NCBI RefSeq assembly: GCF_002288185.1
Contig: NZ_CP016776.1
Span: forward strand, 186,001-250,000
Direction of reading: 5' to 3'
Source: Candidatus Planktophila vernalis
GTDB taxonomy: Bacteria; Actinomycetota; Actinomycetes; Nanopelagicales; Nanopelagicaceae
Length of the DNA stretch: 64,000 bases
Each line of letters opens with the position of its first letter. The first letter of the stretch is position 1. This document shows, piece by piece, positions 45,981 to 53,356 of this stretch. A program made the translations under genes and the position numbers. A model generated the notes under the pieces. That model saw nothing but the letters and a program-made list of their open reading frames with translations. It was not told the DNA's origin and ran no database searches.

Positions 45981-46283
45981 TTATGATGCATGTGAAACAT
46001 CTGGAGTAACGTCTTTACCTAAAATTGCTAAGCGATCATCTTCTGAAAGACCGCCCCAAATTCCATATGGCTCTTGCACAGCAAGTGCGTGTGCTCGGCA
46101 TGCAGCAATTACTGGACATGCAGCACATATTGCTTTTGCAGTGTTTTCACGATTGCGTCGGCGCGGACCACGTTCTCCATCAGGATGAAAAAACATCTCA
46201 CTTGGAAGCTCGCGGCATGAACCTTCGTACTGCCATTCCCATTCATCAGCCACGGGACGGGGTAAACGCGAGATTTCAGCCAT
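45981..46283 (-). CDS. whiB: WhiB-family iron-sulfur regulator (WhiB3/WhiD-like)
   Basis: A 100-residue [4Fe-4S] transcription factor that binds sigma A. The four cluster cysteines are Cys23, Cys53, Cys56 and Cys62 (C-x2-C-x5-C) and the turn motif GIWGG lies at 74-78. The flanking MFFHPDGERGPRRR and HALAVQEPYGIWGGLSE are closest to the WhiB3/WhiD subgroup known to me, which senses redox and affects lipid metabolism and differentiation. The start is ATG at 46283 with no Shine-Dalgarno; a near-ideal promoter puts the transcript start at the ATG. It is divergent from the MerR regulator gene. Confidence 0.93.
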   Translation of the reverse strand: MAEISRLPRPVADEWEWQYEGSCRELPSEMFFHPDGERGPRRRNRENTAKAICAACPVIAACRAHALAVQEPYGIWGGLSEDDRLAILGKDVTPDVSHAS

Positions 46284-46289
46284 GGCGAT

Positions 46290-46318
46290 ACTCTACAACC
46301 GCGCCATAGGTTGTTCAA
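46290..46318 (-). promoter_or_regulatory. Leaderless promoter of whiB with MerR-type dyad in the spacer
   Basis: On the minus strand TTGAAC (46313-46318) and TAGAGT (46290-46295) are exactly 17 bases apart, and TAGAGT is 6 bases before the ATG. A perfect dyad ACAACC-N8-GGTTGT (46295-46314) lies in the spacer, where MerR-family proteins bind. The neighbouring divergent gene encodes a MerR-family protein. Confidence 0.7.
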
Positions 46319-46393
46319 GCCCCAACGCTCCAGAAGTTGTTCATGGGCGTGTTTCAACTGGTGAGTTGGCCCACTTCAGGCCACGATTGGCCC

Positions 46394-47278
46394 GTGTCAA
46401 CTAAAGAAGAGCTTCTGACTGTGGCAGCCGTAGCCCGGCGCATCGGTGTAGCCCCTGCCACCCTTCGTACCTGGGATCGCCGTTATGGCCTTGGACCTTC
46501 TGCTCATGAAAGTGGCGAGCACCGACGATACTGCCCAGCCGATTTAGCTCGCCTGACATTAATGCGCAGATTAATTACTAGCGGTGTTTCACCCTGTGAC
46601 GCTGCCGCACAAGCAAAGAGCCACAAAGGCACAGTTAACCTTGAAACAATAGTTACTGATTATGTTGTTCGCGAAGAGTTAGTTGCAGCCCTCCACAAAG
46701 CGGCAAAGGGGCTGGATAAGAAATTTATTGAGGCGGCTTTGCGCAAGGATTTAGCGCAATACGGTGTTGAACAATCCTGGTCTGAAGTCATAGTTCCTCT
46801 TTTACTCATTGTGGGCAATGAGTGGGAGGCAAGTGGCGATGGCATTGAAGTCGAGCACTTGCTGACCGAGGTACTTAAAGGGATTTTGCGAGAGCATGTT
46901 GAGGACATCAGAAAGCCTGTGAATGCTCACCCAGTTCTACTTGCATCCGTTGGAGAAGAACTGCACTCACTTGCACTGCATGCACTTGCTGCTGCACTTG
47001 CAGAACGCAAAATCGAAACCTATTTTCTTGGAGCTAGAACTCCACTTGAAGCTTTGTCAGCAATGATTACGCGCTCTGCTCCACCTGCTGTGTTTTTGTG
47101 GGCGCAGCTTTCCAAAAATGCTGACCCAAAGTTTTTCAATGACATCCCAGCTATCAGGCCAATGCCCAGAATGGTTCTGGGTGGACCTGGGTGGAGCCAT
47201 ATTGATTGCAAAGATGTCTCGGTGGTTCACGATATTTCCGATGCCGTGGCAGAGATTGAACGTGCCGTAGGGCTCTAG
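46394..47278 (+). CDS. MerR-family regulator with AdoCbl-binding domain (CarH/LitR-like)
   Basis: A 294-residue regulator with an N-terminal MerR winged helix (LTVAAVARRIGVAPATLRTWDRRYGLGPS) and a C-terminal cobalamin-binding region. From the GTG at 46394 the signature W-x9-EH is Trp144, Glu154, His155, and the probable lower-axial histidine is His191 in E-L-H-S-L-A, spaced 36 residues from His155 much as in CarH. The usual Gly of E-x-H-x-x-G is Ala. The Rossmann-like B12 domain continues with ETYFLGARTPLEALSAMI and MVLGGPGW. The frame is open to TTG 46337 with ATG 46343 as an alternative start; I prefer 46394 because the upstream part is not MerR-like. CarH proteins are AdoCbl-dependent light sensors; that role here is inference. 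Confidence 0.85.
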   Translation: MSTKEELLTVAAVARRIGVAPATLRTWDRRYGLGPSAHESGEHRRYCPADLARLTLMRRLITSGVSPCDAAAQAKSHKGTVNLETIVTDYVVREELVAALHKAAKGLDKKFIEAALRKDLAQYGVEQSWSEVIVPLLLIVGNEWEASGDGIEVEHLLTEVLKGILREHVEDIRKPVNAHPVLLASVGEELHSLALHALAAALAERKIETYFLGARTPLEALSAMITRSAPPAVFLWAQLSKNADPKFFNDIPAIRPMPRMVLGGPGWSHIDCKDVSVVHDISDAVAEIERAVGL

Positions 47279-52301: not shown

Positions 52302-52706
52302 TTAAGTAGTGGGATTATCGCCTTCATTGATGTATCGAATTTCTTCGGTGTGTTCGATCGTAACTTCACGGTGTTCGACTTGGCCGAACTCATCAATCTC
52401 GATGGAAATCTCCGTCATGCTGAACTGTGTGACAACTTCGGTAAATGCCCCAGCTGCTTGGCCATGAATTTGGTTGAAGATGGCGTTATGAAGTTCTTGC
52501 GGTGCTTCTTCATTACATGTTCGCTGCAGGACTTGTTGAACTAGAGAGTGCATCGCTCGCTCGTGGGCAAGCTCTGCTTCACAGGCAGGGCACTGGGCAA
52601 CGTGAACTTCAATGACCTGCATCTGTGGTGGCTCAATATTGCCTTCAATAAGTAGCACGAAGGAGTTAAGAACTTGGCTACAAGGCGTTACAAATGAGAA
52701 ACTCAT
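52302..52706 (-). CDS. rsrA: Zinc-binding anti-sigma factor (RsrA-like)
   Basis: A 134-residue ZAS-family anti-sigma factor, probably the redox switch for the upstream sigma factor. The zinc motif H-x3-C-x2-C is His35, Cys39 and Cys42, with Cys9 as the fourth ligand or disulfide partner, the spacing seen in RsrA. In Streptomyces, oxidation of such cysteines releases SigR. The C-terminal half is longer than usual and acidic. The ATG overlaps the sigma-factor stop (ATGA), so the pair is co-translated. Confidence 0.88.
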
Positions 52707-53338
52707 GATTCTGCCCCCTCATCAGGGTCAGATTTCTTAGCCGAAGGCTTGGCTTTAACGTTGTAACCAAGTTCCTTTGCATACTCTGTTAACCGCTCAC
52801 GTAGCTGTTTTCTTCCCCGGTGAAGTCTGGACATCACTGTTCCAGCTGGCACACCGACAATCTCAGCAATCTCCTTATAAGAAAAGCCTTCAACGTCAGC
52901 CAAATAGACGGCAATGCGAAACTCTTCAGGGATTTCTTGTAGAGCTCGTTTGATGTCGCTATCGGGCAGATTTTCAAGTGCTTCTACTTCTGCTGATTTT
53001 CCTTGATCACTAGTGTGTGATGCCGCATCTGCTAACTGCCAATCTTCGATTTCACCAGAAGATAGTTGAGGGCGGCGCTGGTCTTTGCGATAGGTGTTAA
53101 TAAAAGTAGTTGTTAAAACGCGATAGAGCCAGGCTTTTAAATTAGTTCCAGGTTCAAATTGGTGGAATGAAGCAAAGGCTTTTAGGTAAGTGTCTTGAAC
53201 TAAATCTTTAGCATCATCAGGATTTCTTGTATAGCGCAACGCTGCGGCATAGAGCTGGTTTGTAAATGCAAGGGCATCTCGCTCAAAGCGGGCAGCACGC
53301 TCCGCTGAGCTCTCTTTAACTAAATCTGTCGATGTCAT
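52703..53338 (-). CDS. sigR: ECF sigma factor (SigR/SigH-like)
   Basis: An RpoE-like sigma factor of about 211 residues. Region 2 is [47 protein letters not shown] and region 4 [48 protein letters not shown], very close to SigR/SigH of actinobacteria, which direct the disulfide-stress response. I choose the ATG at 53338; a TTG at 53347 is also in frame. Paired with rsrA. A near-match to the SigR promoter consensus lies just upstream, suggesting autoregulation. Confidence 0.92.
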
Positions 53339-53356
53339 TGCTAGCAAAGATTATCG

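Follow-up and report, generated by a model that had tools for sequence, protein, structure and literature searches.

What does a MerR-type regulator with a B12-binding architecture control, and to which signal might it respond? The question is raised by a locus in the window (the whole stretch of 64,000 nucleotides analysed here), in which a merR gene (46394..47278, + strand) is divergent from a whiB gene (45981..46283, − strand) across an intergenic region of 110 bases (46284-46393). The first-pass annotation had proposed that this regulator controls whiB in response to adenosylcobalamin (AdoCbl) and perhaps light, which would tie light or cobalamin status to redox gene control in an actinobacterium of sunlit water. 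The comparisons described below incline us, though by no means strongly, to read the MerR protein as a regulator dedicated to the class III whiB gene that diverges from it, acting by CarH-like repression and with a corrinoid as its likeliest ligand.

The whiB promoter and the start of merR

The whiB product (100 aa; Pfam Whib) has the CxnCx2Cx5C and G[V/I]WGG motifs described for Wbl proteins in the available text of PMC7363131, where WhiD and WhiB3 are assigned to class III, and its best match among solved structures is WhiB3 (4.5e-33), followed by WhiB1 (1.3e-12). Its promoter on the − strand reads, as had been noted from the letters alone, TTGAAC-17-TAGAGT, with the -35 box at 46313..46318 and the -10 box at 46290..46295. 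The latter lies only 6 bases from the ATG and the mRNA is therefore probably leaderless. When the window was scanned with Rfam models at their gathering thresholds, no cobalamin riboswitch was recovered, a tRNA being the only match.

A perfect dyad, ACAACC-N8-GGTTGT, had been proposed as the operator in the spacer of this promoter. It is indeed present at 46295-46314, and nowhere else does the genome (1.36 Mb) contain it without a mismatch. By itself, however, it does not go beyond chance: when the intergenic region was shuffled 2000 times, 562 of the shuffled versions had some perfect dyad (6-base arms, spacer 0-14), and the dyad alone was accordingly rejected as evidence. With one mismatch allowed it occurs at 5 further places in the genome, which makes 6 in all, the same number as for a reversed control pattern; in the window, at the same tolerance, 2 matches were found and 0.13 were expected. 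The evidence is supplied instead by a conserved 25-base element around the dyad.

On the other strand, merR was taken to begin with the GTG at 46394, since in orthologues the frame is interrupted by stop codons ahead of that position. A candidate promoter read by eye, TGGTGA-17-CACGAT (46359..46387, + strand), ends 6 bases before the GTG and is kept in the regions of relatives that were compared. A second conserved block near this start (window 46355-46378) has the form AGTGGTGAG-CCACTT in relatives and is unlike the whiB element; it presents a perfect AAGTGG-N9-CCACTT dyad at one locus (L015), and lies inside an 8-base dyad at another (L019).

Candidate ligand-binding residues and the likely signal

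The merR product (294 aa) shares with CarH and class I LitR a MerR DNA-binding domain followed by two B12-binding domains, of which Pfam recovers B12-binding_2 along with MerR, while B12-binding remains below its cut-off (26.7 vs 32.1 bits). Its closest solved structure is Thermus CarH (5c8d; sequence match 8.6e-18), and the NCBIfam CarH equivalog NF052513 yields 99.6 bits, short of the cut-off of 400. As in these proteins, the Wx9EH cap (W144, E154, H155), the ExH lower ligand and the GG are retained. The second His that had been pointed out 36 residues after H155 is H191, in E-L-H-S-L-A; the corresponding spacing in Thermus CarH is 35 (chain positions 162 and 197). Among merR proteins paired with a divergent whiB (115 rows, amounting to 110 distinct proteins) W144 is kept in 111 rows, E154, H155 and H191 in 113 each, and W129 in all 115. 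Ligand residues are lost at two paired loci, L130 (E154A, H191Y) and L152 (W144V, E154Q, H155R, H191E).

A CarH homologue has been defined by two motifs, both of them required, Wx9EH and ExHx2G-x41-SxV/T-x22-27-GG (available text of PMC8156234). The window protein possesses the former, and of the latter it retains E189, H191, the x41 spacing and the GG, with the Gly replaced by A194 and SxV/T by W236-A-Q238. Across the 115 paired rows the Ser position is occupied by Trp in 109, Tyr in 5 and His in 1, the Gly position by Ala (66), Pro (47), Ser (1) or Val (1), and a Trp three residues after the GG (W267) is kept in 114. The SxV/T position and this Trp presumably lie on the nucleotide side of the pocket, as in B12 proteins. 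Given the changes at the Ser and the Gly, AdoCbl with its DMB nucleotide may not fit the pocket. As judged from its sequence, the protein is thus CarH-like yet outside the published definition of CarH, departing from it in the nucleotide pocket. A structure prediction from 11 sequences was set aside (mean pLDDT 56.6, with residues 170-242 below 50). In a tree of 76 rows the 73 family rows are split from 3 CarH/LitR rows at 100/99, this outgroup consisting of those three rows only (CarH and two LitR-like proteins) under a midpoint root. Altered or missing B12 sites are also known from LitR classes II-V, likewise MerR-type relatives of CarH, in which class II has the four-helix part only, class III an unrelated C-terminus and classes IV and V no B12 domain (available text of PMC9758184), whereas the present family retains both domains and most ligand residues.

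The near-uniform Trp substitutions in the pocket would also suit a domain that no longer binds DMB-cobalamin and senses another tetrapyrrole (heme or a different corrinoid), or operates cofactor-free, with the control of whiB kept. Heme-binding relatives of B12 domains (SCHIC) exist, which counts for such a shift. A further point in its favour is that these bacteria depend on heme from outside, besides B vitamins (available text of PMC7527133). However, the adenosyl cap Wx9EH and the His that would ligate cobalt show 97 to 98% conservation, above what would be expected without a bound adenosyl corrinoid, and we regard this alternative as unlikely.

With respect to cofactor supply, all 23 window-family genomes searched for a PduO-type adenosyltransferase (PF01923) have one, and all 15 searched for NrdJ, a ribonucleotide reductase that depends on B12, have that enzyme. 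Both occur with and without merR alike, so that AdoCbl should be available as a signal but is no predictor of merR. Methylmalonyl-CoA mutase was considered as a reason for AdoCbl and discarded as not general, being present in 1 of 15 genomes. In the genome to which the window belongs, a B12-binding match falls in an ORF of 236 aa (G000:C1:946590-946913) and none falls in an ORF of MetH size (about 1,170 aa), although such a match is found in the majority of the 23 family genomes; another methionine synthase may be in use there.

The likely presence of AdoCbl in the cell, the retained cap and lower-ligand His, and CarH as the best solved relative would also suit a true CarH/LitR light switch, with an AdoCbl-bound tetramer that represses whiB in the dark and is released when light cleaves the Co-C bond. 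The replacement of the SxV/T Ser by Trp speaks against it, as does position 145, equivalent to the photochemical His of Thermus CarH, where none of the 115 paired rows has a His. This residue is reportedly semi-conserved in LitR. In Thermus CarH the His adjoining the cap Trp becomes the upper ligand in the light, and an H132A variant was mostly still tetrameric after light in one study, contrary to an earlier report (available text of PMC10442372). The absence of this His in the present family argues against a CarH-type light response, although a milder one could persist. Moreover, the merR-whiB pair has been found in 20 families across the class and is therefore not specific to sunlit water, and nothing in this spread points to light. 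Hence, of the regulator originally envisaged, a CarH-related protein with a dedicated site at the whiB promoter stands; light sensing by it is weakly supported by the sequences, and a genuine light switch appears quite improbable.

Pairing with whiB and the distribution of the promoter element

Among the fetched loci, merR has a divergent upstream whiB at 116, in the 20 families mentioned above, and lacks one at 27. The 116 include one with a damaged whiB (L067), and some genomes are counted under two loci; the 27 include three with little or no upstream sequence (L018, L034, L044), two that are LitR-like (L055, L056), a distant match (L057) and a broken frame (L054). In a sample of the class the MerR protein was detected in 190 of 394 genomes at E 1e-20 and class III whiB in 228 of 394 at 1e-27. 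Elsewhere in the genus the protein is near full length in 29 of 36 genomes, the other 7 being assemblies 41 to 89% complete. In the window family (41 sampled genomes) both genes are present in 36, merR only in 1, whiB only in 0 and neither in 4 (Fisher p 5e-5), the absences being drawn from genomes listed without a match, relatives first, with the family part taken as complete; three of the four genomes lacking the genes share one genus, which leaves at most two independent losses. The single genome with merR only (G367) has a damaged whiB and intergenic region: at its locus (L067, G367:C51) whiB is missing an inner part, the intergenic region is gone and the gene start almost touches merR, which reflects either a genuine deletion or an error in the assembly. 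On the 76-row tree, under the midpoint root, the paired state requires 8 changes; our reading of this, rather than a test, is that the pairing is ancestral and was then lost in some lineages.

Two departures from the usual arrangement were observed. At one locus (L157, G278:C9) the pair is split, with whiB and merR about 10 kb apart on one contig. In family f9 (L051, L128) merR directly follows groEL, without whiB or the element; by eye it looks as if whiB had been excised from the groEL-whiB-merR order of the window, and in L128 H155 is changed to R and H191 to Y.

The conserved element occupies 46294..46318 on the − strand of the window and covers the -35 box, the spacer and the start of the -10 box, including the dyad. 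Its consensus on the whiB strand, TTGAmCAACyTaTGrmgCGgTTgTAnngT (77 distinct 31-mers), makes of -35, spacer and -10 a single block, in which most positions of the -35 are invariant or nearly so and the TAnnnT of the -10 is conserved. Of the 74 window-family loci, 73 (all except L067) score at least 20 of 25, as do 23 of 42 others, and 33 of these 42 outscore all 100 of their own shuffles, scores which are partly circular since the consensus was drawn from the scored regions; the absence or uniqueness of sites is free of this circularity. Nine paired loci do not beat their shuffles (L046, L047, L126, L132, L133, L137, L139, L144 and L158), and the element is not recognisable in some other paired families. 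In the window a half-copy lies 26 bases upstream of the element (46326..46343, − strand), and such a half-copy, 26 or 27 bases upstream, occurs in 51 of 87 regions against 3.0 expected from shuffles.

In whole-genome scans of the window family that tolerated as many as 3 mismatches, each of the 19 genomes that bear merR yielded a single site, which lies at whiB, and the 4 without merR yielded none; these 4 are the genomes that are also without class III whiB. A reversed control pattern gave no match in any of the 23. The search at whiB orthologues that the first-pass annotation had suggested thus returned the 25-base element, once per genome, and its advance grounds for giving up the idea, the absence of the dyad or of the divergent arrangement from close relatives, did not materialise, both features being present in relatives. 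A second scan covered 22 hand-chosen merR-whiB genomes, 20 of them outside the family and none from the five families in which the element is weak (f11, f26, f29, f33, f41), together with 12 genomes that have whiB and no paired merR, ten without any merR match at 1e-20 and two (G054, G148) with weak unpaired matches. The site was recovered in 19 of the 22 (17 of the 20 outside the family), always at whiB, and in 0 of the 12, with one match for the control pattern; in the three misses (G281, G306, G101) the element has one extra base before the -10 (L115, L114, L147). Six whiB upstream regions without a paired merR score 12-16 of 25, comparable to shuffles, and the 500 bases upstream of 20 unpaired merR genes score 13-17, with no clear element.

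The internal form of the site was also compared with that of the CarH operator, for which the criterion is tandem 11-bp direct repeats, nAnnTnnACAn. The self-similarity of the element at a shift of 11 is equalled by 105 of 2000 column permutations. For a palindromic reading, the inverted symmetry is equalled by 890 of 2000 permutations, and arm positions 9 and 20 do not covary (Fisher p 0.59). In large genomes, unpaired merR genes (L134, L138, L141, L149, L150) carry 11-base direct repeats of the type GCATCGnTTCn just before their own start, which suggests self-regulation via CarH-type repeats.

That the element instead serves whiB autoregulation or another regulator, merR being a mere neighbour, might be argued from its overlap with the -35, given that WhiD-type proteins act with sigma region 4 (available text of PMC7363131), and from its absence upstream of unpaired merR genes, but is very unlikely given that none of the 12 genomes with class III whiB and no paired merR has it, that the six upstream regions read directly lack it and that whiB and merR are absent together.

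A proposed scheme for whiB control

Comparison establishes the pairing and the element, which in the searched genomes occurs once and at whiB, as well as the conservation of the residues; dedicated regulation of whiB by the MerR protein is well supported by it, and corrinoid sensing is plausible. Among the points against this preferred reading are the nine paired loci, out of 42 from other families, that do not exceed their shuffles, the loss of ligand residues in L130 and L152, the changed SxV/T Ser and ExHxxG Gly, the occurrence of adenosyltransferase and NrdJ where merR is missing, and the existence of unpaired merR genes.

Under dedicated regulation, the MerR protein would bind the 25-base element over the -35, spacer and -10 of whiB and, in many relatives, also the half-copy 26 or 27 bases upstream. 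The ligand-bound oligomer would then stand in the way of RNA polymerase until the ligand is lost or altered and the promoter becomes free. Classical MerR-activated promoters have spacers of 19-20 bases. Repression is likelier here than activation of that type because the whiB spacer, at 17 bases, is of ordinary length and needs no correction, and because the element lies where bound protein would block RNA polymerase. As ligand, a corrinoid would be the best candidate, probably an adenosylated one: H191 would serve as its lower ligand, W144, E154 and H155 would form the cap, and the nucleotide side of the pocket (W236, W267) is unlike that of CarH. In this scheme whiB expression would track corrinoid status, and it is reasonable that a shortage of corrinoid should act on whiB; light would be secondary if it acts at all. 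As in CarH and class I LitR, the predicted site overlaps a sigma-A-type promoter; the differences from CarH lie in the Ser to Trp and Gly to Ala/Pro changes, the absent photochemical His, the separate clade and the proposed target, which is whiB here and carotenoid genes in CarH. Since the 12 searched genomes with a WhiB3/WhiD-type gene and no paired merR lack the element, the proposed regulation need not apply there. A more far-reaching version, which we put forward only tentatively and think less likely than not to hold, would have these proteins constitute a distinct, ancient actinobacterial CarH-like family in which the nucleotide side of the corrinoid pocket has been rebuilt; the signal would be some corrinoid different from DMB-AdoCbl, or a tetrapyrrole of another kind, and the output would be fixed on a single WhiB3/WhiD-type promoter.

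WhiB3 and WhiD have roles in the actinobacterial redox response and in development. If a gene of this type has its own regulator, equipped with a sensor domain of the corrinoid type, that regulator would feed into it directly from upstream, in a way open to testing. The pair was not encountered in the open literature searched, including the available text of PMC4255298, PMC9758184 and PMC7363131, and Wbl control would, if the more far-reaching version is true, gain a metabolite input absent from the papers searched. In addition, with its Ser to Trp exchange and no photochemical His, the family offers natural sensor variants for probing the range of CarH-type sensing. Some 5 kb from the whiB-merR pair (window 52302-53347, − strand) there are genes for an ECF sigma factor and a small cysteine-bearing protein, which by eye we take to resemble the SigR-RsrA thiol-stress pair.
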